This document shows, one piece after another, positions 5,084 through 28,190 of a stretch of DNA of 28,190 nt. Below the pieces are notes generated by a model. The model was not told the DNA's origin. It saw only the letters and a program-made list of their open reading frames with translations, and did no database searches. Both the position numbers and the translations under genes were made by a program. Source of the DNA: a virus; IMG/VR virus record IMGVR_UViG_3300034073_002251, positions 1 through 28,190 of that record. One strand, 5' to 3'. The stretch's first letter is position 1. Each line of letters opens with the position of its first letter.

Positions 5084-5090
5084 CTCCCCT

Positions 5091-5119
5091 TTCATCCGTG
5101 CCTACCCTAACGATATAAG
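5091..5119 (+). promoter_or_regulatory. Possible sigma-70 promoter before the minor head gene
   Basis: TATAAG at 5114-5119 matches the -10 consensus at five of six positions. TTCATC at 5091-5096 is a weak -35 with a 17-bp spacer. It sits directly after a terminator and 11 bases before the GTG start at 5131, implying a very short or absent leader. No Shine-Dalgarno sequence precedes that GTG, which fits leaderless translation. Inferred by consensus only. Confidence 0.35.
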
Positions 5120-5130
5120 CACGACCTGCT

Positions 5131-14483: not shown

Positions 14484-14535
14484 TAGGCCGTTACCCTGCT
14501 ACTCGGCAAACTAGGTGCAAAGCTGAACTGCGTTC

Positions 14536-14967
14536 GTGGCTGTCACAATCTCACCGTATAACCACACGGCTGCCCGCTTTGGCAGCGGCGCAAACGCAGT
14601 GGGTGATACCTACAAGCTGATGCTCTGCACGGCGGCCACCTTCAACGCTGCCAACACCACGCTCGCCGGCATCACCAAGACTGAGGTGACCAACGCCAAC
14701 GGCTACACCACAGGCGGGGCCACTCTGGCCAACGTGGCTGTGACCACCGTCACCACCAATGACGCCAAGTTTGACGCTGATGATGTGACCTGGAGCGCCA
14801 CGGGAAGCGGGATCACCGCCAGCTACGCCATCCTCTACAACGACACCGATGCTGATGATCCCCCAGTGGCCTTCATCGACTTCGGCGGTTCTGAGTCTGC
14901 GGCCAGCGGCACCGACTTCCTGATCGTCTGGAACGCCAGCGGCATCTTCACCTGGACGGTTGCCTAA
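14536..14967 (+). CDS. Small virion/tail protein (paralogue 1)
   Basis: This 143-aa protein starts at a GTG at 14536, after a 52-bp gap that lacks a clear Shine-Dalgarno sequence. It belongs to a widespread phage structural type recognised by GDTYKLMLCTA, NGYTTGGATL, ADDVTWSATGSGI, a SYAILYNDT strand, PVAFIDFGG and a terminal WNASGIFTW. Members are small beta-sandwiches found in the fibre module. The next gene shares the same order of motifs, so the pair probably arose by tandem duplication. It shares TAATG with that gene. Confidence 0.75.
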   Translation: MAVTISPYNHTAARFGSGANAVGDTYKLMLCTAATFNAANTTLAGITKTEVTNANGYTTGGATLANVAVTTVTTNDAKFDADDVTWSATGSGITASYAILYNDTDADDPPVAFIDFGGSESAASGTDFLIVWNASGIFTWTVA

Positions 14968-15371
14968 TGGCCATCTCCACCACGATCAGCACCAAGGAAC
15001 TGGAGCGTCAGGCTGCCTTGGTCTTTGAGGGCGAAACCCTGAAGGTCATGCTCTGCCAGGTTGGCGTGACCGGCTACACAGCAGAGAGCACCGTGGCCAA
15101 CTGGCAGTCTGTCGAGGTCAGCGGTGGCGGTTATGCCCGCTATTCCGAGGTCATCGGCACCGGCAGCTACAACGGGACTGCAGGCGTCTATCAGCTCCCT
15201 GCCATTGATGCCGAGTTCACCGCGACGGGTGCTGGCTTCACCTATGACCGCATCGTGCTCTACATCGACGGGGCTACGTATCCGCACTCGGTCATGGTCG
15301 AAGACCCCAATATCGTCCTTCTCGCGGGTCAAGTTCAGACGTACAGAATCGACCTCAGCCAGGATGATTGA
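14967..15371 (+). CDS. Small virion/tail protein (paralogue 2)
   Basis: This 134-aa protein begins at the ATG overlapping the previous stop. Aligned by eye with its neighbour it shows GETLKVMLCQ, SGGGYARYSEV, ATGAGFTYDRIVLYIDG and a final VQTYRIDL strand, keeping the spacing but little identity. Its N-terminus (STTISTKELERQAALVFEG) adds a short helix not seen in paralogue 1. It is likely a fibre-associated structural protein. It ends three bases before the next GTG start. Confidence 0.72.
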   Translation: MAISTTISTKELERQAALVFEGETLKVMLCQVGVTGYTAESTVANWQSVEVSGGGYARYSEVIGTGSYNGTAGVYQLPAIDAEFTATGAGFTYDRIVLYIDGATYPHSVMVEDPNIVLLAGQVQTYRIDLSQDD

Positions 15372-15374
15372 GCT

Positions 15375-16898
15375 GTGACGACCCGTATCACGGTCACCAC
15401 AGATAGCGGCGGTTTACTGGATCGCAACGCCCAGCAGCAGGCCGCCGCACGACAAGCCGCACTTTTGAAAGCACAGGCAGAGAAGGCCGCCGCCTTAGGT
15501 GAGGCCCAGTTACGCCAAGACCGCATCAACGCCGGCCTCGACCCAGCCACAGGCCGCCCCCTCCCCTTCACCGGCTCAACCCTCAGCCGCGTTAACCAGC
15601 AGCCTGCTGCCTCTCGCCAAGGGCTGGATTTACGTGTAAACGTCTTCGGCCTTTCTGCCTCTGTGTTTACCGAAAGGACCGAGGATGGCAGAACTTACTA
15701 CGATTTCACAAGAACAGTAACCATACATCCGCCCCGAGCTTCTGCCCCTATTGTATTTTCTCAGGCAGGCGATGTATTTGAACGCACACTGCCGGAGCTT
15801 GACCCAGCCGAAGACATCTCAACATACATCTCAACCCCATTTCTTGACCGAACGACAATAAGCACAGCGGGTTCTGGTACAGATACTAATTTCTATACCG
15901 CTAGTGGTGAAACCTATGGATTCTATGATAGCGGCATACCCTCTCCTTCTTACTTTGATTCATGGCGCTACGACATATTACAACAGAGCGCATACACGCA
16001 CATCGTTCCTGCTGGAACAGGGAGTGCATACGTCATCGTGGCATTTGACGTCAACTACAAAGCAGAGCGCATCAGGACAACATACACAAGATCGGGCACC
16101 ATATTCAACCCTCCCACTTCATACGACAGCACCACAACAGTAACCGCAACGATCTCAACGCTATTTCAACATTCTTATGAGTCCCGCAATGTAGAGTGCT
16201 TTTTCGTGACAGACACAACGGCTGTCAGAGTAAACACACCAACTACATTGCAGGCTAGGGTTGATGCCCTATACCCTGCTCCAGTCAAAAACGCTACAAC
16301 CGAAATAAACGCAGGCACCTTCGGGCCATTCCCAGGAGTCAGCACCCCTAACACGCGCACCAGGACAACTGTCTCTACTGGCGGATCAACATTTACGTGG
16401 GCAGAAACATCTTCTTACACTGCTGTTACTGTCCCAAAAGCTGAAAGCACAGCTATACCCTATGCAGCGCCACTATCCCGATACCTCGGTGGTTCGCTTG
16501 CTTGGACTCCTGCCGCTGCCCTAACGCTTCTTGCAGGGCCAGTCACAACGAAAACCCAAAGCGAGGTAACACCAGAAGAGATAGCTACGTTTAACAATTA
16601 CATATTCATGGAGTCTCAAGGCTTTGGCGCAAACAACATAACTAACACACGCAAATACTATATTGACACCTTCGACGGTACTGACACTGAGGGAAACCGA
16701 TATACCTTTGTAGAATACTCAGAACAAAGACCAACCACATGGGGCGATCCAGTACCAAATGGCAAAACCTGGCCAAGATCACCCGTTGTTACGCCCGCCT
16801 TGCAAGGTGAGTACACTCGGCACTCTAACTGGGGAAACTCAGCTATTTGCTCAAGGTATGTGGCGGCGCTTGGTCTTTCTCCCTCCCCTTCACCATGA
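15375..16898 (+). CDS. Large adhesin-like tail protein, atypical composition
   Basis: This 507-aa protein starts at a GTG after TTGAGCT. Residues about 14-55 form a Gln/Ala/Arg-rich helix (RNAQQQAAARQAALLKAQ), probably an attachment coiled coil. The remainder is Thr/Ser/Tyr-rich beta sequence without a recognised domain, ending GNSAICSRYVAALGLSPSP. The centre (about 15660-16860) is clearly richer in A+T and uses codons such as ATA and AGA that are rare in neighbours, whereas the first 280 bases have the G+C of the genome. This looks like a swapped-in receptor-binding cassette on a conserved N-terminal anchor. Function is inferred from position. The stop overlaps the next start (ATGA). Confidence 0.72.
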   Translation: MTTRITVTTDSGGLLDRNAQQQAAARQAALLKAQAEKAAALGEAQLRQDRINAGLDPATGRPLPFTGSTLSRVNQQPAASRQGLDLRVNVFGLSASVFTERTEDGRTYYDFTRTVTIHPPRASAPIVFSQAGDVFERTLPELDPAEDISTYISTPFLDRTTISTAGSGTDTNFYTASGETYGFYDSGIPSPSYFDSWRYDILQQSAYTHIVPAGTGSAYVIVAFDVNYKAERIRTTYTRSGTIFNPPTSYDSTTTVTATISTLFQHSYESRNVECFFVTDTTAVRVNTPTTLQARVDALYPAPVKNATTEINAGTFGPFPGVSTPNTRTRTTVSTGGSTFTWAETSSYTAVTVPKAESTAIPYAAPLSRYLGGSLAWTPAAALTLLAGPVTTKTQSEVTPEEIATFNNYIFMESQGFGANNITNTRKYYIDTFDGTDTEGNRYTFVEYSEQRPTTWGDPVPNGKTWPRSPVVTPALQGEYTRHSNWGNSAICSRYVAALGLSPSPSP

Positions 16899-17014
16899 CT
16901 GACGCCAAAGCCCTACTGCAAAAAGCCCAGACCCAAACGCAGGCTAACCGCTATGCGTTTCTCATTCGTCAACTCAACGCTAAGCTCACTAACAACATCC
17001 GTAATTCCAAGTGA
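16895..17014 (+). CDS. Very small helical protein
   Basis: An ATG at 16895 overlaps the adhesin stop (ATGA). The 39-aa frame ends at TGA 17012-17014, which overlaps the GTG of the chaperone gene (GTGA). Coupling at both ends supports a real gene. The product (MTDAKALLQKAQTQTQANRY onward to NAKLTNNIRNSK) is a Gln/Asn/Lys-rich amphipathic helix. Function is unknown. Confidence 0.55.
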   Translation: MTDAKALLQKAQTQTQANRYAFLIRQLNAKLTNNIRNSK

Positions 17015-17595
17015 CGACACTACCGTTCGTCGAATCTCCAGCTTCCCATTCAATTCGTCGTCTTGGCACCCCTGCTTCTGGCATCCTCGAGATGCCTGTC
17101 ATTGGTGGGTTGACCGTTGATGAGTCGGCCATCATTTCAGAGATGCTGGCCTCTGAACGCTCAGCCTTTGTTACTGGTGCTGCAGCAGCAGACGTGATTG
17201 CCAAGGTCGAGGAAGTCTCCCTGACTGAAGCGTTCCAGATCATTGAGAAGGCTGTCATGGGCAGACCTTTGGATGGTGACGCAGATCAAATCCGCATCCG
17301 TCATGCTGACCGGATTGCTGAGGTGGCCCGCGTCTATTCCAAGGCAGGCCAGGCCAACATGGAAGCGACCGTGACTGCCCTGATCCGCTGCAGGCTCAAG
17401 CTGCCGGAGTGGACAGTTGAGGAGACCCGTGGACTGCATAAGGCCCTCTTTGATGCCATCTGGGAGCTGGCACAGGAGGAGCAGGCTACAGAGCAGATGC
17501 CTGCTAGCCCGCCAACGGAGGAAGACCTGGGAAAGCAGCTGCCGGCCACTGGGAACAGCAGGAAGCCGACTGGTCGAAAATCTTCTGGGAGCTAG
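17011..17595 (+). CDS. Tail assembly chaperone, lambda gpG-like
   Basis: This 194-aa protein starts at a GTG. It has the layout of G-type chaperones: a short beta N-terminus, LTVDESAIISEMLASER near residue 34, a helical centre with EATVTALIRCRLKLPEWT and LHKALFDAIWELAQEEQ, and a low-complexity tail (EEDLGKQLPATGNSRKPTG). G-type chaperones coat the tape measure during tail assembly. The tail contains the heptamer GGGAAAG in the frame needed for -1 slippage, and the -1 frame is open long past this stop. The gene lies about 6.4 kb after the tape measure instead of just before it as in lambda. Confidence 0.78.
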   Translation: MTTLPFVESPASHSIRRLGTPASGILEMPVIGGLTVDESAIISEMLASERSAFVTGAAAADVIAKVEEVSLTEAFQIIEKAVMGRPLDGDADQIRIRHADRIAEVARVYSKAGQANMEATVTALIRCRLKLPEWTVEETRGLHKALFDAIWELAQEEQATEQMPASPPTEEDLGKQLPATGNSRKPTGRKSSGS

Positions 17596-18182
17596 CTAAC
17601 GGTTACCCCGGCCAGTTTGACCGGCAGACCTTTGGCCAGGAGAAGCGGGTCGTGGTGCTTAAGGCCTGGCGGACGCTGCACAGCATTAGACGGGAACAGG
17701 CAGCAATGGCAGAGCTGCCGGTGGCGAACCTGTCGGCCTTGATGGCCAACATGAACCGCGACCCGAAGAAGGCTAAGCCATTCAGCTTGTATGACTTCTG
17801 CGTCTTCAATGACAAGCCTGATGATGGCCCCGGCCAACTGTCACCAGAGGTGGCTGCTGTGGCCCTGGCATTGCGGCATGAGGACCGTGCACCTCGAGGA
17901 GTGCTGGCCATTTGGGATTCGATTCTGGCAGCTGCTTCAGAGTCGGCCAGTGTGCCAAGCATCAGGGCATTGGCATCCTCCGATGATCGGGTCTGGATTC
18001 TGTGCCCACGATGGGAGGGCCCGCATGTGCGTGGTGGGTTGGTCTGTGTGCTGGGCCAGGCCCATGGGTTGATTGAGGTCAGGGACATTGACCGCCCGCT
18101 GGCCAGCTATCAGGTCAGTGTGCCCAATCGAAGGTTGGCCGGCTGGATTGAAGCTGACCTGCTGTTGAAAGGGGAAACCTAA
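17011..18182 (+). CDS. Tail assembly chaperone G-T fusion made by -1 frameshift
   Basis: The -1 frame runs open from 17535 to TAA 18180-18182. Its first residues (HWEQQEADWSKIFWELANGY then PGQFDRQTFGQEKRVVVLKA) look like real protein well upstream of any start codon in that frame, and they overlap the end of the G frame. Slippage at G GGA AAG (17529-17535) would join 175 residues of G to 215 residues of T, giving about 390 aa. T-type domains recruit tail tube subunits to the chaperone-coated tape measure. A separate start at GTG 17652 (176 aa) is possible but would lose about 40 coding residues. The T part is longer than lambda T and ends RRLAGWIEADLLLKGET. Related residues SLYDFCVFNDKP occur near its middle. 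Confidence 0.75.
17529..17535 (+). promoter_or_regulatory. Programmed -1 frameshift slippery site GGGAAAG
   Basis: The heptamer is in phase as G GGA AAG with the G reading frame (codon GGA at 17530-17532, AAG at 17533-17535). Simultaneous slippage gives GGG AAA and continues in the T frame at 17535. This is the same heptamer used by phage lambda at its G/T junction. I did not identify a clear stimulatory pseudoknot downstream. Confidence 0.78.
18173..18181 (+). promoter_or_regulatory. GGAAACCTA element before the terminator gene
   Basis: The nonamer spans the last codons and stop of the chaperone gene, 22 bases upstream of the ATG at 18204. It recurs at 18586 and, inverted, at 8612-8620, each time shortly before a gene start. 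Function is unknown; it may be a phage promoter or operator element. Confidence 0.3.
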
Positions 18183-18203
18183 GGATCAGGAGGCCTAAAG
18201 CTG

Positions 18204-18584
18204 ATGACAGTATTGGAGCTGCGCAATGCACTGGCAGCCTTGCTGACCGCATCCTTGGGCACCTACACCTTGGGCAACGGCAGCACCACACCAGCAATCA
18301 GTGTGCGGGCCGTGGGCGAAAGGAGGCCAGTGGATACCACGGTCACGGGACTGGAGGTGGTCATTGTCCGTGACCCTGAGCTGACGCCAGTTGAGGTCTA
18401 CAAAGAGCCTGGTGCGTTCAGGGAATGGACGGTCTACTTGATTGACTGGTCTGATGCCACGAGTCTCGAGGCTCCTGCGGCAGCGGTCGTCGCGGCCTAT
18501 CCCGGCACGCTTGTCAGAGCAGCGAGTGTGCCCAAAGGAGTCGGTCCGCAAAACCAGATGGAACTGACGATCAGGTTCCAGTAG
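18204..18584 (+). CDS. Probable tail terminator / minor tail protein
   Basis: This 126-aa protein begins MTVLELRNALAALLTASLG and has a helix followed by strands (TPAISVRAVGER, LEVVIVRDPEL, EWTVYLIDWS), a second helix (LEAPAAAVVAAYPG) and a final strand (NQMELTIRFQ). The alpha-beta order and size resemble lambda gpU-type tail terminator proteins that cap the finished tail. A GGAGG ribosome binding site stands at about 18188-18192. The gene follows the tail chaperones and comes before the lysis genes. The call is from fold-like pattern and context; other minor tail proteins are possible. Confidence 0.55.
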   Translation: MTVLELRNALAALLTASLGTYTLGNGSTTPAISVRAVGERRPVDTTVTGLEVVIVRDPELTPVEVYKEPGAFREWTVYLIDWSDATSLEAPAAAVVAAYPGTLVRAASVPKGVGPQNQMELTIRFQ

Positions 18585-18585
18585 C

Positions 18586-18594
18586 GGAAACCTA
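18586..18594 (+). promoter_or_regulatory. GGAAACCTA element before the lysis-gene cluster
   Basis: The nonamer starts 2 bases after the stop of the previous gene and ends 25 bases before the likely GTG start of the first lysis gene. With AGGTTCC just upstream (18573-18579) it forms an imperfect inverted repeat, as in the dyad at 8612-8629. It may be the promoter or operator of the lysis cluster. Confidence 0.35.
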
Positions 18595-18619
18595 GAAGTG
18601 TCGTGCTCCAGCTTTGGTT

Positions 18620-18904
18620 GTGACTCCCGAGCAGCAACCACCACCCTTTGTGGAACGGAGGACGCTGAGCCGTGTGCAGGTCATGGAGGCCACTGCTGCG
18701 GCAGTGCTTGCCGCCGCCATTATCGGCACCGCTAGCGGTGTGGGTTGGCTCGTTGTCCAGCTTCCCACCCGTCTTCAGCAGTTGGAAAACCGGATGAACC
18801 AGATTGTTGAAAACCAGGAGCTGTTTAACCAGAAATTCATCCAACTGGAGAAAACAGTGCAGGAACACGACCGCCGCATCATCCGCTTGGAGCTTTCCCA
18901 ATGA
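18620..18904 (+). CDS. Membrane protein with coiled coil, holin-associated candidate
   Basis: The 94-aa protein is read from GTG at 18620 (MTPEQQPPPFVERR); TTG 18614 and ATG 18683 are alternatives and none has a good Shine-Dalgarno sequence. It has one membrane helix (about residues 25-48, AVLAAAIIGTASGVGWLVV) and then a regular heptad coiled coil to the end (LQQLENRMNQIVENQELFNQ). Small proteins with a membrane segment and coiled coil are frequent in lysis clusters, as holin partners or antiholins. The next gene starts within its last codons (ATGA overlap at 18901-18904). The precise lysis role is uncertain. Confidence 0.6.
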   Translation: MTPEQQPPPFVERRTLSRVQVMEATAAAVLAAAIIGTASGVGWLVVQLPTRLQQLENRMNQIVENQELFNQKFIQLEKTVQEHDRRIIRLELSQ

Positions 18905-19143
18905 ACCGCTTTGTCAAGGGTCAGGTTGATGCCAGCTTGTTCATCCCGGTCTTGATTGGGTTGATCTATGCCGGAAGCGGAGGCTGGACCGCTGAACGGT
19001 GGAATGGTGCCTTGGCCATCATGGGCATCGGTGCTGGCACTCGAGCTGGATTTGAGCGCGGCTACAACACGTTCAACCCTGACCTGCGGCAGCCGCAACA
19101 ACCCCGCGATGAGCATGGGCGATTCTCGCGGCGCGAGGAATGA
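18901..19143 (+). CDS. Small membrane protein of the lysis cluster, holin candidate
   Basis: This 80-aa protein has a hydrophobic N-terminal segment (about residues 11-28, LFIPVLIGLIYAGSGGW) and a second weak one (WNGALAIMGIGAG), giving one or two membrane helices, then a charged C-terminal tail ending RDEHGRFSRREE. Size, topology and its position before the endolysin fit a holin that makes the lethal membrane hole. The stop overlaps the next ATG (AATGATGG at 19140-19145). The assignment is by topology only. Confidence 0.55.
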   Translation: MNRFVKGQVDASLFIPVLIGLIYAGSGGWTAERWNGALAIMGIGAGTRAGFERGYNTFNPDLRQPQQPRDEHGRFSRREE

Positions 19144-19349
19144 TGGACGACAACCAGCACCAGCGGCGAGTCACCGACCACTGGCACATCATGGAACTGG
19201 TCATCCCCGTGGGTGCCATGTTCCTGCTGATCATCGGCGCAGTGTTCGCCTGGACGTTGAGCAGTACCGTGCATGAACAGCACCGGCTTCGTGGTGAACA
19301 TGGTCAGCTGCTGGAGCAAATCACCCATTCGTGCAAGGGGCGCAAGTGA
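19140..19349 (+). CDS. Small single-helix membrane protein of the lysis cluster
   Basis: This 69-aa protein has a charged N-terminus (DDNQHQRRVTDHWH), one strong membrane helix (about residues 19-43, LVIPVGAMFLLIIGAVFAW), and a polar helical C-terminus with one cysteine (LLEQITHSCKGRK). A second ATG at 19143 is an alternative start. The N-in topology with a short periplasmic helix resembles an inner-membrane spanin or holin, but it is too short for a typical Rz. Function is undecided. Confidence 0.55.
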   Translation: MMDDNQHQRRVTDHWHIMELVIPVGAMFLLIIGAVFAWTLSSTVHEQHRLRGEHGQLLEQITHSCKGRK

Positions 19350-19552
19350 TGGCCGTTCACTGGAGCTGGGATGACCTACGGATCATCGCGGACATCGTTG
19401 CTGGAAGCCTGCTGGCAGGCACACTCCGTCTGATCGTGCTCAAGGCGTTCCTTGAACCCATCGCTGCCTACGTGGGACAACAGGCATACCGCCGCGCTGA
19501 TCGAGCAGTCGGTGGCCGGCTGCCGGATCTACCGCCAATCGCTGAACCCTGA
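19349..19552 (+). CDS. Small membrane protein of the lysis cluster
   Basis: The 67-aa protein is read from ATG 19349, which overlaps the previous stop (TGATG); an in-frame upstream start at 19331 lies inside the preceding gene. It begins MAVHWSWDDLRIIADIVAGS, with one membrane-like helix (about residues 10-40) and an Arg/Pro-rich tail (RRADRAVGGRLPDLPP). It shares TGATG with the endolysin start (19550-19554). It could be a holin component. No family recognised. Confidence 0.55.
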   Translation: MAVHWSWDDLRIIADIVAGSLLAGTLRLIVLKAFLEPIAAYVGQQAYRRADRAVGGRLPDLPPIAEP

Positions 19553-20742
19553 TGACTTACGCCTCGGTCCGCGCTGCAGCGGAACATGCCGCTCGCCAGG
19601 GCGCGCTCACACCGCATCAGCTGGCTGCCTTCGGCTGGTTGGATGAATCGCTAAGCACCGAGCAGCGTCAAGAATTCACGGAGCTGTGGCGAGCAGCGGG
19701 GAGCCCAGCAGCGCCAGCTGATCCTGACTGGCTGGCGCCTGCGCTGAAGATCATCCGCGAGTTTGAGGGCTGCCGGCTTGAGGCATACCGCTGCCCTGCT
19801 GGCGTGTGGACGATCGGCTACGGCACCACCCGCTATCCGAACCCTGGTGGTGGGCCGGTGCGCAAGGGCGACTCAATCATGCAGCAGCAGGCTGAAGACT
19901 TCCTACGCCATGACCTGCTGACCCTGCGCGGTCCCGCCCTGCTGGATCTGCTGCCCATGGCCACCAGCTGGGCGCCCAACCGCATCGCCGCATTGGTGTC
20001 CTGGGCATACAACGTAGGCCTGGCTGCCGTTGAGGATTCAACCCTGCGCAAGCGGCTGAACGCTGGTGAGGATCCCGTAGTGGTGGTGACGGAAGAACTC
20101 CCCCGATGGAACAAGGCAGACGGCAAGGTGCTCGAGGGCCTGGTGCGTCGCCGCAATGCTGAGGTGGCGCTGTTCGTTGGTCAACCGCTCCAGCAGTCCG
20201 GCCATGGCAACCCGCTGCAGGTTCCCTGGTTTACGCAGATGGACAGTGCCGACCGCGACCAAGCGGCACGAATGTGTTTCTCCAGCAGCTGCGCCATGAT
20301 GCTGGCCTACCTAAAGCCTGGTGTGCTCACCGGCCCCAACGGTGATGACCAGTATCTGAAGCGCGTCCTGCAATACGGCGACACCACCAACCCATCAGCG
20401 CAGATCCGTGCACTATCCAGTTACGGCGTCAGGGCCAAGCTCACGAAGGTGGCCGGCTGGCGCACGCTTGAGGATCAAATCGCTGCCGGTATTCCCGTGC
20501 CCTGCGGGTTCCTGCATCGTGGCCCTGTCACTGCACCATCAGGTGGCGGTCACTGGCTTTGCGTGGTGGGCCACACCACAACCGATCTGATCGTGCATGA
20601 CCCCTTTGGGAAGGCCGACCTGGTGACCGGCGCAACGATTGGCAGCCCTGCACGGTTCGCCAAATACTCCCGCCAGTATTTCGGCCCACGCTGGGAAGTT
20701 GAAGGCACGCGAACAGGCTGGGCGATCATTGCCGAAAGGTGA
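19552..20742 (+). CDS. Bifunctional endolysin: GH24 lysozyme plus C39-like peptidase
   Basis: This 396-aa protein has three parts. Residues 1-57 (LTPHQLAAFGWLDESLSTEQ) are a helical spacer. Residues about 60-210 form a T4-type GH24 lysozyme with the E-8aa-C-5aa-T triad: Glu72 (REFEG), Cys81, Thr87 (WTIGYGTT), plus SWAYNVG near residue 150. Residues about 222-396 look like a papain-fold C39-type peptidase: PWFTQMDSAD, then catalytic Cys247 (in CFSSSCAMML), His334 (GGGHWLCVVG) and Asp350 (VHDPFG). The first domain would cleave glycan strands and the second a peptide bond in the cross-links. There is no signal peptide, so export depends on the holins just upstream. Gly-Ser-Gly-like linkers separate the domains. 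Confidence 0.88.
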   Translation: MTYASVRAAAEHAARQGALTPHQLAAFGWLDESLSTEQRQEFTELWRAAGSPAAPADPDWLAPALKIIREFEGCRLEAYRCPAGVWTIGYGTTRYPNPGGGPVRKGDSIMQQQAEDFLRHDLLTLRGPALLDLLPMATSWAPNRIAALVSWAYNVGLAAVEDSTLRKRLNAGEDPVVVVTEELPRWNKADGKVLEGLVRRRNAEVALFVGQPLQQSGHGNPLQVPWFTQMDSADRDQAARMCFSSSCAMMLAYLKPGVLTGPNGDDQYLKRVLQYGDTTNPSAQIRALSSYGVRAKLTKVAGWRTLEDQIAAGIPVPCGFLHRGPVTAPSGGGHWLCVVGHTTTDLIVHDPFGKADLVTGATIGSPARFAKYSRQYFGPRWEVEGTRTGWAIIAER

Positions 20743-20951
20743 AAGATGCCTTCCTGCTGCGCTTGCTCGGCTGGGTCTTCCTGGCGCAGTTCGCCATCTA
20801 CCTCGCTGGTGCCGCAAGCTGCATTTACATCGGCATCCGTCTGGAGCGTGCAGTCTGCGCCGACTTTGACGCCAACCTACAGCGCACCTTTGAGAGTGCC
20901 ACTGCCACCGTGCTGGCACTGCTTGGCGGTCGAGCACTCAACAAGGACTAG
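20739..20951 (+). CDS. Small membrane protein closing the lysis cluster
   Basis: This 70-aa protein starts at a GTG overlapping the endolysin stop (GTGA). It has one long hydrophobic segment (about residues 5-32, LLRLLGWVFLAQFAIYLAGA) then a polar part with Cys and a second weak hydrophobic stretch (SATATVLALLGGRAL). It may be a holin, antiholin or spanin-like partner; it is the last + strand gene of the late block. Its TAG (20949-20951) overlaps the TAG of a possible small gene on the other strand. Confidence 0.6.
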   Translation: MKDAFLLRLLGWVFLAQFAIYLAGAASCIYIGIRLERAVCADFDANLQRTFESATATVLALLGGRALNKD

Positions 20952-21112
20952 GGCGTTTTCATCCCTCGGCTTGCGCAGATCACCCGCAACACCTCCAGTG
21001 CTCGCTGTCCGCAGTAGCAGTTGACTGCCATCCCTGCTGCTACAACCTGCCAGACCGCTGATCCTCGTTCGTCCAAAACAACTGTGATGTAAGGCACAAC
21101 ATCAACAGCCAT
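20948..21112 (-). CDS. Possible small unknown protein at the block junction
   Basis: An ATG at 21112 opens a 54-aa frame that ends at TAG 20948-20950, interlocked with the stop of the + strand lysis gene. The product (MAVDVVPYITVVLDERGSAV, then WQVVAAGMAVNCYCGQRALE) has hydrophobic strands and a CYC pair, and looks protein-like. It has no clear Shine-Dalgarno sequence and lies 24 bases from the divergent gene at 21137, leaving little room for promoters. It is otherwise the only content of the 20952-21136 gap. Confidence 0.42.
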   Translation of the reverse strand: MAVDVVPYITVVLDERGSAVWQVVAAGMAVNCYCGQRALEVLRVICASRGMKTP

Positions 21113-21136
21113 GGCGGGCAACATACATACAAGACC

Positions 21137-21424
21137 TTGCTTAAGTTGCCAGTGGCTTGGAGTGAATGGTTAGTCCCGAGATTAAGCATTTCTGCAGAAG
21201 CGCAGATGCACAGTCACCTCTCCGCAATCAAACGTGAAGGGCCTGAGAACGTTGACCAGCTTGTGAACATTGCTTGCTCACTGGCTCAACAAAATGCAAT
21301 GCAATCTGCAATCATTCGTCAAGCCATCCATCACGTGAGTCTGCTTGAAATGCAGGCCGAGCTAAACAACCGCAAGCATCCCCCACGGATCATCCGCTGG
21401 TTGCTTGACCTGTTTAGCCAATAG
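21137..21424 (+). CDS. Possible small helical protein
   Basis: A 95-aa frame is open from a TTG at 21137 (GTG 21152 and ATG 21206 are alternatives; none has a good ribosome binding site). Residues about 35-80 are two amphipathic helices (NVDQLVNIACSLAQQNAMQS and IIRQAIHHVSLLEMQAEL), and the end is basic (PPRIIRWLLDLFSQ). The hydrophobic periodicity suggests a real product. Its 3' end lies antisense to the last 63 bases of the sigma factor gene. Function is unknown. Confidence 0.48.
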   Translation: MLKLPVAWSEWLVPRLSISAEAQMHSHLSAIKREGPENVDQLVNIACSLAQQNAMQSAIIRQAIHHVSLLEMQAELNNRKHPPRIIRWLLDLFSQ

Positions 21425-22291
21425 CATCTGCCGCTGCAGGGCCTTGTAGGCTCGTTCAGCTTGAAGCCTGACTGCTTCACGGGTCACATTCAGTTTGCGA
21501 CCAATGGCCGTAAACGTGTGTGGCTCGTTGCCATCCAAGCCATAGCGCAGCTTGATGATCAACTGTTGCCGTTCAGGCAGCGCAGCCATGGCCGTGCTCA
21601 ATAGTTCCGTGTCAATCTGATCTGACACCTGTTCAAGATGCTGGTCCGCATCAGAGCCATCCCCGATCAGTGCGCCAAGATCACTGCCATCATCAAAGAT
21701 GGCAATATCAAGGCTGGCGCAGGGTGCAGCCAGCAGCAGGGCCCTTTCGTATTCATCTTCAGTGATGCCCATTGCTTCGGCCACTTCTGGCCTGCTGGGC
21801 TGCCGGCCTAGCTCACCGGCTAGCCGCTGGATGATGCGGTTATGCCCCATAAACTTCTCAGCAATCTTGTGGGGCAGCCTGATTGGTCTACCGTTGGCCT
21901 CGATGCCACGGGTCATCATTTGAGTGATCCACCAGTAGGCATAGGTGGAAAACTTGTAGCCCCGTTCAGGGTCAAACTTCTCAACGCCACGGATCAGGCC
22001 GAGGATGCCGTCTTGCATCATGTCTTCGGCACTAGCCTGGAATCCACCCATGGACCGCTGGCGTTTACGGCAGATGGCTGCCACCAGCTTGAGGTTGGCG
22101 CTGATCATGCGATTGCGAGCAGCGATGCCGCGTTTGATGATCCGCTGTTCAGCTGTGGTGTAGGGCCCGCTGTTTTCCTCTTTGAGCTGCATCATGGCTT
22201 GGATGCGGCGGCCTAGGTGGATTTCTTCTGCTGGCGTGAGGAGGGGAATCCTGCCGGCCTCGTTCAAGAAAACATCAAGGGTGTCTTTCAT
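21362..22291 (-). CDS. RpoD-like sigma-70 factor (group 1/2 type)
   Basis: The 309-aa protein is read from the ATG at 22291, which shares TAATG with the dCTP deaminase stop; a longer frame upstream lies in another reading frame of that gene and is rejected. Regions are in order: 1.2 (about 5-35, VFLNEAGRIPLLTPAEEIHL), 2 (about 60-130, ANLKLVAAICRKRQ, FDPERGYKFSTYAYWWITQM), 3 (about 138-215, IRLPHKIAEKFMGHNR), and 4 (about 232-290, LPERQQLIIKLRYGLDG and a TFTAIGRKLNVTREAVRLQ helix-turn-helix). All elements for core binding and -10/-35 recognition are present. It resembles cyanobacterial group 2 factors more than typical phage ones, so it was probably captured from a host. It would redirect RNA polymerase to phage promoters. 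Confidence 0.9.
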   Translation of the reverse strand: MKDTLDVFLNEAGRIPLLTPAEEIHLGRRIQAMMQLKEENSGPYTTAEQRIIKRGIAARNRMISANLKLVAAICRKRQRSMGGFQASAEDMMQDGILGLIRGVEKFDPERGYKFSTYAYWWITQMMTRGIEANGRPIRLPHKIAEKFMGHNRIIQRLAGELGRQPSRPEVAEAMGITEDEYERALLLAAPCASLDIAIFDDGSDLGALIGDGSDADQHLEQVSDQIDTELLSTAMAALPERQQLIIKLRYGLDGNEPHTFTAIGRKLNVTREAVRLQAERAYKALQRQMLLAKQVKQPADDPWGMLAVV

Positions 22292-22812
22292 TAGAGGTGT
22301 CCTCGACTGGCAGTGACAATCTGATCGCCGTTGTAGTTCCCAACGACCGCATAGCTTTTGATTGGCACGTCGGCCATTACATAGAAGATCATCTGGCCGA
22401 TCTTCATGCCAGGCCAAATTGGCACCGCATGAAGCTGTCTGCTGTTGTGCAGTTCAAGCGTCATCACTGAACCGTTGAATCCAGGGTCCGCAAACCCTGC
22501 AAGAAGATGCTCAATCCCTTCCCTGGCCCTGCTGGACTTCAGGACGAACTGTGCCGCTAGATCGACTGGGATATTGAAGACCTCAAGGGTCTGGGCTAGC
22601 ACAAACTCACCGGGGCGCATCATGTACGGGTGCTCTTGGCTGTGGTGCTCGAGCGGATACGGGACCAGCTGCGGTGATTGGGCAGACTCAATCAAGAGCG
22701 TGCTGCCAAGCCTGACGTCAAGGCTTGCTGGGTTGACCAGTGCTGGATCAAACGGTGTGACCATGCCGCCATCACAGCGAGCCTTGATCTGAAAATCAGC
22801 AAGAATGCCCAT
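22291..22812 (-). CDS. dcd: dCTP deaminase
   Basis: This 173-aa protein has the dCTP deaminase/dUTPase fold motifs in order: PASLDVRLGSTLLI (about 28-41), FVLAQTLEVF (70-79), KSSRAREGI (92-100), FADPGFNG (107-114), and LELHNS (119-124), with Glu120 in the position of the water-activating glutamate. It would turn dCTP into dUTP, the precursor of dTTP, to feed phage DNA synthesis. Length is slightly shorter than the bacterial enzyme (about 190 aa). It lies between the regulator and the sigma factor in the early operon. A bifunctional dCTP deaminase/dUTPase is not excluded. Confidence 0.87.
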   Translation of the reverse strand: MGILADFQIKARCDGGMVTPFDPALVNPASLDVRLGSTLLIESAQSPQLVPYPLEHHSQEHPYMMRPGEFVLAQTLEVFNIPVDLAAQFVLKSSRAREGIEHLLAGFADPGFNGSVMTLELHNSRQLHAVPIWPGMKIGQMIFYVMADVPIKSYAVVGNYNGDQIVTASRGHL

Positions 22813-22859
22813 TGGCTTGTTTGGTGTTGAATAACGGAGAATTGATCGGGTGGTCTTGT

Positions 22860-23462
22860 TTAAGCAGTCTTCCAGTGGTAACCAGCAGCGGTCTCATTTG
22901 TATTGAGCACTGCTCTTAGCCGTTGTGGGGTCACATAAACTGACTTTGCCGCTCGATAGATTGACGAATACCGCCGCCCGCGCTCAATGCAGATCACAGG
23001 TTTGCGGGCCCATGGTTTCGGCAGTTCCATGGCTACGATTCGCGCTGCGGTCTTCTCGTTGTTAAAGAGCATGACCAGCGTTGATTCAGACTGCCCACCA
23101 AATAGGTAAGGCCGTTCTTCGGCCAATCGCCGCAAGCTATCCCTGGTAAAGAAGTGGACGTTATGTGGACCGTGGGGATAGTCGCGGGTTTTCAACCAGC
23201 CATTGGCAATCCACCGTTGGACGGTTGAATGCGAAACCCTCATGAGCTGGGCCACAAAACCAGTCGTGACCCATTCACCAGTGGATCGCCGCTGAAGGCC
23301 AAGGCCATCGCACTTTCGCTTTAGGGCAGTCTCTGACCGCTCGATGAAGCCCCGACCTTTGGCCTGACTGTTGTAAGCAGGCGTGACCATTGGCCAGGGC
23401 ATATCACCACAGAGCGACATCAGAATTTCAAGTTCTGCGTCAGACCAGTGGCGATGTCCCAT
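22860..23462 (-). CDS. DNA-binding protein: Myb-like, MerR-type HTH and NUMOD1 domains
   Basis: This 200-aa protein seems to contain three DNA-binding modules. Residues 5-56 (HWSDAELEILMSLCGDMPWP with ETALKRKCDGLGL) resemble a SANT/Myb or GcrA-like helical domain. Residues about 64-116 (VTTGFVAQLMRVSHSTVQRW onto FTRDSLRRLAEE) are a MerR-type winged helix-turn-helix. Residues about 154-198 (PVICIERGRRYSSIYRAAKS ... GYHWK) match the intron-encoded nuclease repeat (IENR1/NUMOD1) domain. No nuclease catalytic motif is present, so it is more likely a transcription regulator than an endonuclease. It lies one base after the previous gene. Confidence 0.72.
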   Translation of the reverse strand: MGHRHWSDAELEILMSLCGDMPWPMVTPAYNSQAKGRGFIERSETALKRKCDGLGLQRRSTGEWVTTGFVAQLMRVSHSTVQRWIANGWLKTRDYPHGPHNVHFFTRDSLRRLAEERPYLFGGQSESTLVMLFNNEKTAARIVAMELPKPWARKPVICIERGRRYSSIYRAAKSVYVTPQRLRAVLNTNETAAGYHWKTA

Positions 23463-23463
23463 C

Positions 23464-23787
23464 TCAGAATGCAGGCTCTTCGGATGAGAGGGTCACAGCT
23501 TGTGGGTTGATGGTGCCAAAGCTGCCGCGCTGGCCATCACGACCTTTGCCGTTGATGTAGACGCCAGTAACCTCAACCTCGCTCTTGGTTGCATAATCCC
23601 AGATCTTGCCCGTCTTATGACGGGAAGGATCATCAGCCAAGTTCATCAGGTACTGGGCAAAGGCATACGCTGATTCCAGTGGGATGAATAGCGACAGGTT
23701 AATGGGGTTTTTGCCCGACTGGTCATACCTGTTCTCTCCAGTGCTCCACTTCACTGGCTTGGGCAATGCAGGAGTAAAATCGCTCAT
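23464..23787 (-). CDS. Early operon protein of unknown function
   Basis: This 107-aa protein begins MSDFTPALPKPVKWSTGENR and continues with a beta-rich region: NPINLSLFIPLESAYAFAQY, SEVEVTGVYINGKGRDG and GTINPQAVTLSSEE. The mixed strands with an acidic C-terminus would be compatible with a single-stranded DNA-binding role next to ERF, but no OB-fold hallmark is certain. It is acidic at the end, like the SSB C-terminal tail, though lacking the final Phe motif of bacterial SSB (it ends EEPAF, which is suggestive). It overlaps the previous gene by four bases (ATGA). Confidence 0.7.
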   Translation of the reverse strand: MSDFTPALPKPVKWSTGENRYDQSGKNPINLSLFIPLESAYAFAQYLMNLADDPSRHKTGKIWDYATKSEVEVTGVYINGKGRDGQRGSFGTINPQAVTLSSEEPAF

Positions 23788-24008
23788 GGGATTGGGGGGA
23801 GTTGATAGTGTTGACGAATGATGCGGTGGGCCATTCCGCTAACGGTCAGGCCATTAGTTGAGGCATCTGCTACAAGCAGTTCATGGGCATCAGGCCAGAG
23901 GTAAACGCCAACGCGATGGCCGCTGTCAGTGCCAAAAAGTGCTTGCCGCATCTGGTGTGCTTCGCTGCTGCGACCAAGACGCTTGCGTTCGTTAGCCCTA
24001 GTGCTCAT
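23784..24008 (-). CDS. Ribbon-helix-helix-like small protein
   Basis: The 74-aa protein starts at ATG 24008, overlapping the previous gene stop; seven extra residues upstream are rejected. It begins MSTRANERKRLGRSSEAHQM and has RVGVYLWPDAHELLVADAST, then NGLTVSGMAHRIIRQHYQL: a strand followed by two helices, as in Arc/MetJ-type DNA-binding proteins. It could autoregulate the early operon. The pattern is suggestive, not decisive. Confidence 0.6.
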   Translation of the reverse strand: MSTRANERKRLGRSSEAHQMRQALFGTDSGHRVGVYLWPDAHELLVADASTNGLTVSGMAHRIIRQHYQLPPIP

Positions 24009-24262
24009 GAGCAGCCCGAGACCTCCCAAGCATCCAAGCGATCAGGTGCGCTTGGGTTGATGTTGAAGATGACGCTGGCCACTTGCACATCGGAAACCTT
24101 GTAGAACTCCCGTGTGGCCCGCAGCTGCTCAAGCACAGTCTCCATAAGCGTGTAGCGGAACGCTTGCCGTGGGTCGGCTGTCCAGGTCAGTTTCCCGTTC
24201 AGTGCTCCTGATAGGTACTGCCCCGTCTCCGTGTGCTGCACTAGGAAACGTTCCCGTTGCAA
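24005..24262 (-). CDS. Early operon protein, start uncertain (possible frameshift product)
   Basis: The real-looking part of this frame runs from about 24262 to TGA 24005-24007: RERFLVQHTETGQYLSGALN, then TADPRQAFRYTLMETVLEQL and DVQVASVIFNINPSAPDRLD. Its N-terminal neighbours in the same frame are Ser/Thr-rich shadow sequence, so I place the start at the TTG at 24262; GTG at about 24241 is an alternative. It overlaps the preceding gene (24129-24455) by up to 134 bases in a different frame, which is unusual. A +1 frameshift or a sequencing indel joining the two frames would remove the overlap. Function is unknown. Confidence 0.5.
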   Translation of the reverse strand: MQRERFLVQHTETGQYLSGALNGKLTWTADPRQAFRYTLMETVLEQLRATREFYKVSDVQVASVIFNINPSAPDRLDAWEVSGCS

Positions 24263-24455
24263 GCATGGTGCGGAGTTCAGCGGCAATCCGCTCGAGGACT
24301 GCTCGCCGGACGCAGTGTGTCCCATAGGCCGTGATGCGTGATTCAAAGGCTGCCGCAGCGAAGACTTTGTGCTCGTCCTGCTCGAGCTGACGGCTGGCCT
24401 TGTCGATGTGGTGGATCGCATAGACGATGTGCTCATGAGTCGATGCCTGTGACAT
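24129..24455 (-). CDS. Small helical protein after ERF, 3' end doubtful
   Basis: The ATG at 24455 opens a frame whose first ~65 residues look real and helical: MSQASTHEHIVYAIHHIDKA, LEQDEHKVFAAAAFESRITA, VRRAVLERIAAELRTMLATG. The rest (from about 24260 down to the stop at 24129) resembles non-coding shadow and overlaps a better frame. The start overlaps the end of ERF by 23 bases. It may be the N-terminal half of a longer protein that continues in the frame of 24005-24262. Confidence 0.5.
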   Translation of the reverse strand: MSQASTHEHIVYAIHHIDKASRQLEQDEHKVFAAAAFESRITAYGTHCVRRAVLERIAAELRTMLATGTFPSAAHGDGAVPIRSTERETDLDSRPTASVPLHAYGDCA

Positions 24456-25155
24456 TGGAGATGGTCTGCGAGAGGAAGTCGATGTGCTCTTGCGTCTTGA
24501 TGTGGTCTGCGATGCCGACACCTGCAGGCAGGCCGTATTGCAGACGGAACGCATCGACCAGTTGGGAACGCTGGTCAGGATCAAGAGCAAGGATGGCCTT
24601 CTTGATGGCATTCAGCGCATCAGGGGAGGCAGCAGGGACTGCTGGGACCGCTGGGGCAGGGGAAGAAGTCTGCGGCTTGCTTGCGGGTGCAGGCTTAGCG
24701 GCAGCGCGAGCAGGCTTGCTAGTGCTAGCAGCTTTGGGCTGATCAAAAGCATCCCCGTCATCATCTGGAATGCCAGCAGCCAGTCCAAGCATCGCCAGCA
24801 CCGCATAGCGTCGCTGATAGGTCACGGCGCCGCCCCAATCGTGCAAAGCGTTGCCACGACTGGAGCTTGGTGTCAGCAAGGGCAGCTCAGAGCGTTCTTC
24901 CTCGCCGGACGTGTGCTTGAGGCTAGTGACCAGCATCGTGCCAAGACCGTCCTCAGAAGGCCAAGGCCGAAAGGTCTGGGACAGGCGAATGCCGCACTCG
25001 GCCAGCTTGGGGAGGATCTCACCGAGAACCGTGGCTAGGTCGGCATAAGTGCCGTACTGAGCTTTTGAGGTTTCGTGGATGGTGCCGACTTTCTTGTGAA
25101 AATCGACCAAGGCGGCAGTGAGGGGACTACCAGTGGATGGAGAGGGGTTAGGCAT
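24433..25155 (-). CDS. ERF family single-strand annealing protein
   Basis: This 240-aa protein has the ERF core: LVDFHKKVGTIHETSKAQYG then YADLATVLGEILPKLAECGI in the N-terminal helical part, and the signature GGAVTYQRRYAVLAMLGLAA followed by IPDDDGDA (about residues 107-136). A long Ala/Pro/Ser linker (KPARAAAKPAPASKPQTSSP) follows, then a helical C-terminal domain (LNAIKKAILALDPDQRSQLV). ERF proteins anneal complementary single strands and circularise phage genomes. It opens the early operon just after the candidate promoter/operator. No clear Shine-Dalgarno sequence precedes the ATG. Confidence 0.87.
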   Translation of the reverse strand: MPNPSPSTGSPLTAALVDFHKKVGTIHETSKAQYGTYADLATVLGEILPKLAECGIRLSQTFRPWPSEDGLGTMLVTSLKHTSGEEERSELPLLTPSSSRGNALHDWGGAVTYQRRYAVLAMLGLAAGIPDDDGDAFDQPKAASTSKPARAAAKPAPASKPQTSSPAPAVPAVPAASPDALNAIKKAILALDPDQRSQLVDAFRLQYGLPAGVGIADHIKTQEHIDFLSQTISNVTGIDS

Positions 25156-25178
25156 GGGCTAGGCCCGTGGACCCCTCA

Positions 25179-25208
25179 ACACTACCCCTAGTAGTGACTA
25201 GTGGTCAA
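25179..25208 (-). promoter_or_regulatory. Candidate early promoter with overlapping operator dyads
   Basis: On the - strand, TTGACC (25208-25203) and TAGTGT (25184-25179) form a sigma-70-like promoter with an 18-bp spacer, reading towards ERF. Two dyads overlap it: CACTAC/GTAGTG (25180-25185 and 25191-25196) and CTAGT/ACTAG (25188-25192 and 25197-25201). Such overlap is typical of a repressor-controlled phage early promoter; the XRE-type regulator is encoded next door. Confidence 0.5.
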
Positions 25209-25219
25209 GGGATTGGCGG

Positions 25220-25930
25220 CTAGCGCGGGCAAAGCTCTCGAAACTCAGCGCACAGCTCGTCCGAGTCGCACCATTCCTGCATCGCTTCAATCGCTGGATT
25301 CCGCCCACGGTCATTGGTCATCTCAGCCAGCTCCGCAGGCTTCCAGACCTTGTGGCCGCCAAGCACCAGCTTGAAGGCTGCCACCTGTTCCCTCGTCATA
25401 CCCGTGCAGTGCTGCTGCAGGTCACGCCAGGCCTCCTGTCTGTCCATCAGGCAGTCCTGCGCATGGCGTAGGAACATTTCTCGCTGCTGGTTGCTCAGGC
25501 GTTCTGCTGCTTCCTCGCTGATCGCCCATTCCCGTTCCTTCAGCGCCCAGTCAGGGGCATCCTCCAGCCCGCAGAAGTGGGCGAAGAAGTCCACGGCGGT
25601 CCATGGCTGGCCATCCGGTCTACAGATCGGCTCCTGAGCCTTGATCTGATCGATCAGCCGGCGGTCAGCAATCGTCCCAAATTCCCTGCGGTGCAGGCGG
25701 TCGTTAGCGAGGCCAAGCTGAATGAAGGTCAGCGGCAGCGGCTGCGGGGTCTGGCCACGCTCGATTTTGTTCCAAACCGCATCAGTGACCGAGCTGAAGC
25801 CTGCTGATTTGCCCCATCGGCTCAGCGTGTCCTGCTTCCACCCGGCCCGTAATCGCCAGAGCTTGAGCGTTCGACCAAAGGTCACCCTGGCCTCTTGGCC
25901 GGGGAATAGCTCTCTGTCGGTTTCGGCCAT
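25220..25930 (-). CDS. XRE-type transcription regulator (candidate phage repressor)
   Basis: This 236-aa protein has an N-terminal helix-turn-helix: TFGRTLKLWRLRAGWKQDTL then VTDAVWNKIERGQTPQP (about residues 17-64), the classic XRE layout. The rest is helical and contains WTAVDFFAHFCGLEDAPDWA and EEAAERLSNQQREMF, with no LexA-like Ser/Lys protease motif, so inactivation by RecA-linked self-cleavage is not suggested. A good AAGGA ribosome binding site lies 8 bases before the ATG. It sits between the integrase and the early operon, the normal place for a lysogeny regulator. Whether it represses or activates is unknown. Confidence 0.72.
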   Translation of the reverse strand: MAETDRELFPGQEARVTFGRTLKLWRLRAGWKQDTLSRWGKSAGFSSVTDAVWNKIERGQTPQPLPLTFIQLGLANDRLHRREFGTIADRRLIDQIKAQEPICRPDGQPWTAVDFFAHFCGLEDAPDWALKEREWAISEEAAERLSNQQREMFLRHAQDCLMDRQEAWRDLQQHCTGMTREQVAAFKLVLGGHKVWKPAELAEMTNDRGRNPAIEAMQEWCDSDELCAEFRELCPR

Positions 25931-26005
25931 GGCGGGTGTCCTTATGCGAAACCTGCATCGGCAGGCCCTTTCAGTATCGGCTGCAACAGCAGCACACAGC
26001 CATAA

Positions 26006-27679
26006 CTAGCGGCTTTCTGCAGCTTGCCGGGATTCGGGCGCTGGCGCAATACCCCCCTCTGTCACCTCTTGTACGAGTTGGCCTGCTTCCGCTAGCCTCC
26101 CCCCGGCCCACAGGACACGGCGGTCCAACGGGCGCATGGTCTGCCATTCCAGTGGCCCACCGGGCAACCCCAGCCCCATTCGGCGCTCTTCGCCATCAAT
26201 CACGATCCGTAGCCCCAGCTCCCGCAGGCACCGATTGACAGCCCTGCGCTGCTCGCTGCTGTCTTCCCCTAACGCAAACGCTTGACGGAACGCTGCTAGC
26301 GGCTGAGCGGCTGCTTCAGATTTGCTGCTGTCTTGCTGCACCGCCAGCTGGGCCTCGAGCCCCATCAGTTCCTGTTCAAGTGTGTTGGCCTCCTTCTGCC
26401 GAAGGCTGAGCTGCTCAGACAGCACCTCGACCGCCAGGCCCTGCTCCGCTGCCTTGACCAGGGCCCGCTCGAGGTTTTGACGTTTGGTCTTGATGGCAGC
26501 CAACTCAGCTTTGAGGTGCTCGGCACGCTGCTGCAGGCCTGATGCCCCATCGCTGGCCTGTGCGGCCTCGACCATCGCCAGCAGGGCCTCTGGTTCCAGC
26601 CTGCGCAACAGATGGGCAGTGGCATCAAGCAACGGCACGTTGGCCCTGCGACAACCGTCGTTATGGCTTGCCCGGTGACGGCAGTACAGATAGCGGTATT
26701 CGCTTGAGCCGGAGCTGACGATGCCGACCCGTGTGCCGCAAATGCAATGCGTCAACCCCTGACCAACAAAACGCATCGTGCCGTTGGGCCCTGCCTGCTC
26801 AGCGGTCCTGCCCCGCTGGCGCATGATCTCCCGCACGGCCATGACCTTGGCCTTGTCCACGACCACCGGCAGCACGTCTTCATACAGCTGCTCCTGAGCA
26901 TCCTTGCCGTGATGACGCCTGCTGTTTAGGCGTAGCCCGCCATAGACCGCATCGGTGTTCATGGCCAGGTTGCGGACAGAGCCATTCGTCCAGCGGTTGC
27001 CTGAAGGGGTCAGGAGGCCTTTGGCATTGAGATCCCTGGCCGTGGCCGATGCCCCTTGGTAGCGGAGCATCTCAAAGCACAGCTTGATCGTCTTGACCTT
27101 GGCCTGATCGACCACATACCCCTGCTCGTCCCATTCGCACCAGGCAGGGCAGAAATGGCGGGGCCGTGGGTTGACGTTGGCCTCGAGCTTGGCGCGGTGA
27201 GCCTGCCAGCTGCCTTGCATCCGCATGGCCAAGCGAGCGGAGTATTCGTAGGCCGCCTGAATCTTGACCACCAGCACGATGAGTTTGCTTGGGTCGGAGC
27301 GAAGGGTGGCCCTGCTGTATTCGCTGCCGTCTTCCAAGGTCACGATGCGGACGCCGCTACCGACTAGGCCGCTGAGGATGGTTTCAATGGCATCCAAGGG
27401 CTCCTGTCTGCTCAAGCGGTCAATGGCCTCGACCAGCAGCAGCGGTGTGGTGCCGAGTTGGCCAGCTTGTGCCAGCTGCAGGAACCTGCCTAAGGCCCCC
27501 TTGCTGAGGTGGTCACCCTTGGAGGCTGAGCGGCCCGCATCACAGAGGTGCAGGGTGGTATCCAGCTGCAGGCCATGGCGTGCTGCCCATTCCTGCGCTG
27601 CCCCGCTCTGACGCCCCAGACCGCTGCCTGTGACCTGCTGCTTGGAGCTGACGCGCTCGTAGCTGAAGACCCGTTCCAT
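26006..27679 (-). CDS. Large serine recombinase (phage integrase)
   Basis: This 557-aa protein has an N-terminal resolvase catalytic domain: YERVSSKQQ with nucleophile Ser11 and Arg9, and a conserved EAIDRLSRQEP (about 84-94). A recombinase domain follows (about 190-290, with GASATARDLNAKGLLTPSGN and WTNGSVRNLAMN), then a zinc-ribbon (CIC at 312-314, Cys333, Cys343 in NDGC). A long coiled coil covers about 380-455 (ELAAIKTKRQNLERALVKAA), and a C-terminal tail is rich in Glu/Ala. Size and order match large serine integrases that insert phages at attB. It is on the - strand; its start lies 16 bases from a candidate attP palindrome. Confidence 0.93.
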   Translation of the reverse strand: MERVFSYERVSSKQQVTGSGLGRQSGAAQEWAARHGLQLDTTLHLCDAGRSASKGDHLSKGALGRFLQLAQAGQLGTTPLLLVEAIDRLSRQEPLDAIETILSGLVGSGVRIVTLEDGSEYSRATLRSDPSKLIVLVVKIQAAYEYSARLAMRMQGSWQAHRAKLEANVNPRPRHFCPAWCEWDEQGYVVDQAKVKTIKLCFEMLRYQGASATARDLNAKGLLTPSGNRWTNGSVRNLAMNTDAVYGGLRLNSRRHHGKDAQEQLYEDVLPVVVDKAKVMAVREIMRQRGRTAEQAGPNGTMRFVGQGLTHCICGTRVGIVSSGSSEYRYLYCRHRASHNDGCRRANVPLLDATAHLLRRLEPEALLAMVEAAQASDGASGLQQRAEHLKAELAAIKTKRQNLERALVKAAEQGLAVEVLSEQLSLRQKEANTLEQELMGLEAQLAVQQDSSKSEAAAQPLAAFRQAFALGEDSSEQRRAVNRCLRELGLRIVIDGEERRMGLGLPGGPLEWQTMRPLDRRVLWAGGRLAEAGQLVQEVTEGGIAPAPESRQAAESR

Positions 27680-27694
27680 GCCTCACAGCATAGG

Positions 27695-27742
27695 TGCGTG
27701 CATCTACGTCCTAGTCCCTGGACTGGGTTGCAGACTCGCGCA
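27695..27742. other. Candidate attP site of the serine integrase
   Basis: Around a central CT (27718-27719), the left 23 bases and the reverse complement of the right 23 bases match at 16 of 23 positions by my count. Inner arms are AGTCC (27713-27717) and GGACT (27720-27724); outer arms TGCG (27695-27698) and CGCA (27739-27742). Length (48 bp), a non-palindromic 2-bp centre and adjacency to the integrase gene are the known properties of serine-integrase attP sites. Confidence 0.6.
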
Positions 27743-27841
27743 GTCATGGTGTATGTTGATGGAGCAGGGGCAAGGGCCCCTTGGCACCTAGAAAATTGAA
27801 GAACTAGCGGGCAGTCAGCCCGATCCCGGTTGTGGCCTTCA

Positions 27842-27869
27842 CCCAGGCACCCGATGAGTCCCGCCTGGG
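27842..27869 (+). other. Leader hairpin A
   Basis: CCCAGGC (27842-27848) pairs perfectly with GCCTGGG (27863-27869) around a 14-nt loop. It ends 26 bases before the start of the small gene at 27896, and its 3' arm runs into CTGGGGGCT, repeated in the next leader. It could be an RNA leader controlling expression. No known riboswitch consensus is recognised. Confidence 0.4.
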
Positions 27870-27895
27870 GGCTCAACCACACACCGGAGATCACC

Positions 27896-28075
27896 ATGGC
27901 TGACGAGACCCGCGCCCTCCTCGCTGAAGCGGAGGCTTCCCGGCAAGAGACCGAACAGATCCTTGCTGAACTGGATGCCGCGCTGAAAGCGTACGGACGC
28001 TCAATCGAGCAAGGGCTGGCCTTGGCCGCAGAGATGCGCGACCTAGCCGCCCAGCTTGAGGAGTGGTTCTGCTGA
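27896..28075 (+). CDS. Small coiled-coil protein
   Basis: The 59-aa protein starts at ATG 27896 with a good GGAG ribosome binding site (27886-27889) 6 bases upstream; an in-frame start at 27830 would run through the leader hairpin and is rejected. The product (MADETRALLAEAEASRQETE, ILAELDAALKAYGRSIEQGL) is one long acidic heptad coiled coil ending LEEWFC. It is the first rightward gene beyond the integrase and probably early expressed. Function is unknown. Confidence 0.7.
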   Translation: MADETRALLAEAEASRQETEQILAELDAALKAYGRSIEQGLALAAEMRDLAAQLEEWFC

Positions 28076-28080
28076 GGGAT

Positions 28081-28096
28081 GCCCCCAACTGGGGGC
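28081..28096 (+). terminator. Terminator-like hairpin B after the small gene
   Basis: GCCCCC (28081-28086) pairs with GGGGGC (28091-28096) with an AACT tetraloop, five bases after the stop at 28075, then TGAGTATTTC, a weak T-rich tail. It may end the transcript or be part of the leader of the next gene (28174). Confidence 0.42.
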
Positions 28097-28173
28097 TGAG
28101 TATTTCACCGGCACATGCCCGGCACGGCCTGGAAGCGATGGCCTGCAGGGCACACCATTACCGGAGAACACCA

Positions 28174-28190
28174 ATGTCCACTAGCACCAT
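28174..28190 (+). CDS. Start of a further small gene (partial)
   Basis: An ATG at 28174 follows ACCGGAGAACACCA, with GGAGA at 28163-28167. This context is nearly identical to that of the gene at 27896. Only the first codons (MSTST) are inside the window, so nothing can be said about the product. Confidence 0.5.

Follow-up and report, generated by a model that had tools for sequence, protein, structure and literature searches.

What is the function of a 48-bp imperfect palindrome that lies directly upstream of an integrase gene in a virus genome, and if it is an attachment site, is it intact or one half of an integrated prophage boundary? The stretch of DNA that raises this question, referred to here as the window, is the whole 28,190 bp of the IMG/VR virus record IMGVR_UViG_3300034073_002251. 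An earlier note made from the sequence had placed the palindrome at 27695–27742 around a central CT (27718–27719), had counted 16 of 23 matching positions between its arms and had proposed that it is the intact attP of a serine integrase. Coordinates, centre and count all proved to be exact. In this study we find that the phages with the most closely related integrases keep the palindrome and its 2-bp centre at the same place, which supports the proposed function, and we are confident that the site is the intact attP of the adjacent large serine integrase.

The integrase and its upstream palindrome

By sequence and by predicted fold, the neighbouring protein (26006–27679, minus strand, 557 aa) is a large serine integrase with a catalytic serine domain and with recombinase, zinc ribbon and coiled coil parts. 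It carries the Pfam Recombinase domain and hits phrog_95, an integrase family of PHROG (1.9e-52). A search of the PDB with the single sequence gave only one weak, irrelevant match; a profile built from 26 integrase relatives resolved the identity, matching the solved serine integrases of SPbeta, A118 and phiC31. S11, R88, R91 and the zinc-ribbon residues C312, C314, C333 and C343 are invariant. The top fold matches of the predicted model (mean pLDDT 78, pTM 0.40, hence with an uncertain domain arrangement) are complexes of serine integrases with att sites. Further along on the same strand, the gene at 22860–23462 weakly matches the family phrog_66 (excisionase and transcriptional regulator), and its product is possibly a directionality factor or a regulator.

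The palindrome starts 16 bp from the integrase start codon. The earlier note had put the number of matches expected by chance at about 6, in agreement with our mean of 5.87 across every 2-bp-centred position in the window. A score of 16 is reached by two of the roughly 28,000 centres in the window, namely 27718–27719 and 8668, the latter where the tape-measure gene begins. When the 210-bp intergenic region was dinucleotide-shuffled, scores of at least 16 arose with P ~0.002 for 2-bp centres and with P ~0.009 when any centre of 0–2 bp was allowed; shuffles of the last 130 bp ahead of the integrase start gave P = 0.0007. Might the palindrome nevertheless be a product of chance and have no function? 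The second 16/23 site speaks for this possibility and the low shuffle probabilities at the integrase-adjacent place speak against it. Because the site at 8668 scores as high, symmetry alone is only moderate evidence for an attP, and it is the comparative evidence that makes the case convincing.

Conservation of the palindrome in related phages

Relatives were collected by scanning viral contigs, and rescans with clade alignments added no members. Their integrases are 100% (L002), 90% (L003), 70% (L018), 49% (L019 and L020) and 44% (L021) identical to that of the window. In both L003 and L018 the best palindrome lies at the identical place, with an AG centre at -40 in integrase orientation and a score of 17/23, despite 6 and 12 substitutions, respectively, in the 48-bp site relative to the window. 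The CAGG around the centre is kept in all three. Between the window and L018, symmetric positions are conserved in 28 of 32 cases and asymmetric ones in 6 of 14 (Fisher P = 0.003). As a control we traced 17 other window palindromes scoring at least 14 into L003 and L018: symmetry dropped in all five comparisons in which the homologue had at least six substitutions. The palindrome at 8668 is identical in L003 and is thus uninformative as a conservation control. In a simulation, six random changes in one arm gave 17/23 in only 0.6% of trials. Unlike the controls, the integrase-adjacent site therefore keeps its symmetry through substitutions in two relatives, and a chance origin without function appears extremely improbable. 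The earlier note had named conservation among phages with closely related integrases as one point on which its reading turned, and place, 2-bp centre and symmetry are indeed all kept in L003 and L018. The comparative weight comes mostly from three distinct versions of the site, those of the window, L003 and L018.

Compared with L003 and L018, the picture is less clear in the more distant members of the clade. L019 has a 15/23 palindrome with an AG centre at -26, overlapped by an AT-centred palindrome at -39, and the best palindrome of L021 scores 14/23 (P = 0.064). In the 130 bp before its integrase, L019 (IMGVR_UViG_3300020183_000200) thus has two palindromes that interleave at a spacing of about 13 bp.

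All arms fit a single half-site consensus, TGCGYKNRTCTRCRWSCYARWVC. It is matched by the integrase-side half-site (P', 27695–27717, plus strand) and, on the opposite strand, by the distal half-site (P, 27720–27742, minus strand), and nothing else in the window matches it. With a weight matrix built from the arms, each of four related records again yields the two arms only, with next-best matches of at most 14.5 bits versus 27–31 bits for the arms. Scans with the arm pattern returned the known records and one extra, L115, whose match we take as chance since this record has neither homology nor a comparable palindrome. In the half-sites, TGCG at positions 20–23 is invariant and TCT-C stands at 11–15, which may fit the layout expected of such half-sites, with a recombinase-domain region at 1–12 and a zinc-domain motif at 16–24. 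Searches for tRNA genes and Rfam families found neither in the window, so that an att site of the tRNA type is not indicated.

A mapped attP site in a sister family

The blind palindrome scan was also run upstream of distant integrase relatives (~28–31% identity). One of these belongs to Burkholderia phage JC1, whose integrase is 31% identical to that of the window over residues 3–318. Here the scan returned a 48-bp palindrome with a 2-bp centre and a score of 16/23, centred at -54 on GGGCACCC. In the JC1 lysogen, attP has been mapped to an overlap of 18 bp that lies 41 bp upstream of gp1, the serine recombinase, and the phage integrates in the 5' end of rimO (PMC9144972). The centre of the palindrome lies inside this published overlap. 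In ten sister records (L022, L023, L025, L027, L032, L038, L060, L064, L078 and L089) the integrase-side arm is kept and the sequence beyond GGGCACCC switches to rimO (GCPKALVDSER and variants), which extends the finding made in JC1 to many further records. Those of the rimO hybrids that were scored have symmetry at chance level. Hence, blind scoring of palindromes upstream of the integrase can recover a mapped attP and tell intact from hybrid sites in this group of integrases. The place of prophage ends, the other point on which the earlier note had made its reading depend, comes out in its favour in this sister family, the mapped JC1 case included.

Of the 67 related records that are 12 kb or longer, 28 end no more than 50 bp from the 5' side of the integrase and 1 as close to its 3' side. 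This bias is supporting evidence only, as excised proviruses are trimmed at gene boundaries. Taken together, the switch to rimO, the loss of symmetry in hybrids and the record ends place the prophage boundary of the wider family just upstream of the integrase start. Two-sided symmetry thus marks attP, and hybrids are without it.

Integrity of the site and its flanks

Positions 11711–28190 of the window correspond to bases 1–16480 of L002 and positions 1–6911 to its bases 30341–37251, both at 100% identity. Through this overlap the two records join into a circle of 42,050 bp that contains no host DNA at the site. A free circular, replicating or circularly permuted phage genome would give such a map, and we conclude from this closure that the site is intact. 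If the site were instead a prophage hybrid, attL or attR, it would also lie beside the integrase, which is all that can be said for this reading. It is hardly credible here: both arms match one half-site, the symmetry is two-sided and the circle closes without host DNA, whereas the scored hybrids of the sister family have lost their symmetry. The suggestion of the earlier note that the attP is intact is borne out by the same evidence.

The window is homologous to L003 and L018 up to 27742–27744, the outer edge of the palindrome. A replacement of about 1.3 kb starts exactly at this edge and leaves the site whole. The replaced stretch, from 27743–28190 of the window on to position 17328 of L006, contains small ORFs, and L003 and L018 have other sequence in its place.

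This arrangement bears on a further explanation, namely that a dimeric repressor or regulator uses the palindrome as its operator between divergent promoters, with attP located elsewhere. A suitable protein might be the HTH protein encoded beside the integrase (25220–25930), and -10-like boxes are found on both sides of the palindrome: TATGCT at 27687–27692 on the minus strand, which is kept in three lineages, and TATGTT at 27752–27757 on the plus strand. Phage operators are commonly repeated, however, and the half-site occurs only at this site in records that jointly cover the whole circle; moreover, the site stays with the integrase when its distal neighbour is swapped. On these two grounds an operator with no role as attP is very unlikely. 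The symmetry extends to +/-23 around a fixed, non-palindromic 2-bp centre, as in known attP sites (PMC3783163), and the JC1 palindrome at a like place is a mapped attP, both of which argue against an operator as well.

Could the attP also have a regulatory role? In this variant of the plain attP explanation, which is compatible with it, the integrase-side arm would form part of the integrase promoter, bound integrase would repress its own gene and integration would alter the upstream half of the promoter. The possible -10 box at 27687–27692 (minus strand), 7 nt before the integrase ATG, is found at the identical place in relatives, as TATGCT in the window, TATGTT in L003 and TATGCT in L018. 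This conserved TATGYT lies 2 bp beyond the arm and would place any -35 region inside it. A consensus sigma-70 promoter was not found, and we regard the regulatory role as a tentative proposal.

Host and lysogeny

The capsid protein of the window is 62% identical to the capsid of Synechococcus phage S-H1, for which no integrase is annotated. This resemblance is the sole basis of the host assignment, by which picocyanobacteria are the probable hosts. In unicellular cyanobacteria, lysogeny seems to be rare and is poorly documented (PMC6157547). Searching genome contigs for prophages with the integrase revealed no relative, and the same is true of the sigma factor of the phage against genome contigs. 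A tblastn search of phages and plasmids with the integrase gave relatives below 60% identity only, none of them in cyanophages or cyanobacterial plasmids. Neither prophages nor attL, attR or attB sites of the window clade were found in the genome and viral-contig searches. A search of the literature on serine integrases in such cyanophages retrieved no paper, which is not proof of absence. Among the other genes of the window, 21362–22417 (minus strand) encodes the sigma factor, a full member of the sigma-70 family with regions 1.2, 2, 3 and 4, and 19552–20742 (plus strand) combines a phage lysozyme and a C39-like peptidase domain in a single protein.

Discussion

The interpretation of the palindrome as attP is well supported; it is useful rather than surprising. 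Sites of this kind are known, and the present one comes from a little-known group of phages whose hosts are probably cyanobacteria. Binding, crossover at the CT, an attB and recombination are steps that we infer. An integrase dimer would bind attP so that each subunit takes up one half-site of 23–24 bp, with its recombinase domain close to the centre and its zinc domain over half-site positions 16–24. The bound attP would then synapse with attB in the host chromosome. At the central CT (27718–27719; AG in integrase orientation), which is the symmetry centre and the proposed crossover, both strands would be cut with a 2-bp stagger, exchanged and religated. One end of the resulting prophage would carry the integrase gene together with the P' half-site and its far end the remaining half-site, with the non-palindromic centre fixing the orientation of insertion.

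With a defined candidate attP and its integrase, picocyanobacterial genomes can be probed directly for prophages and attB sites, and the two form a candidate recombination pair for cyanobacterial genetics. On a broader and more doubtful hypothesis, the window might represent a phage clade of picocyanobacteria that is lysogenic by means of a large serine integrase at a conserved host site, with an attP arm that also belongs to the integrase promoter, whereby integration would alter integrase expression.

How does the site compare with known systems? Serine integrases use attP sites that are imperfect palindromes of about 40–50 bp with a 2-bp centre, and the 48 bp found here agree with this. The attP of JC1 resembles it in being a 48-bp 16/23 palindrome with a 2-bp centre just upstream of a sister serine integrase; it differs in its half-site sequence, its core GGGCACCC, its CA centre and its known target, rimO. 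Freshwater cyanosiphovirus S-LBS1 is a probable temperate Synechococcus siphovirus with a tyrosine integrase, and its att candidates are short direct repeats (PMC6157547); both it and the window clade are probable cyanophages with an integrase, of the serine type in the clade. The attP of Streptomyces phage phiJoe is an imperfect inverted repeat, no longer than 50 bp and with a 2-bp centre, that lies 18 bp upstream of int (PMC5311408), which comes close to the imperfect repeat and the distance of 16 bp in the window. The phiJoe site has a GG centre instead of CT and an actinobacterial host, and it has been confirmed experimentally. For the integrase of Listeria phage A118 (LI integrase), attP is a 50-bp pseudo-palindrome in which each subunit occupies a 25-bp half-site with the zinc-domain motif at positions 16–24 (PMC3783163). 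The sequence of that site is unrelated to the palindrome of the window, and the complex has been solved for A118 whereas the present integrase structure is a prediction; the invariant TGCG here lies at positions 20–23, within the range of the A118 zinc-domain motif.
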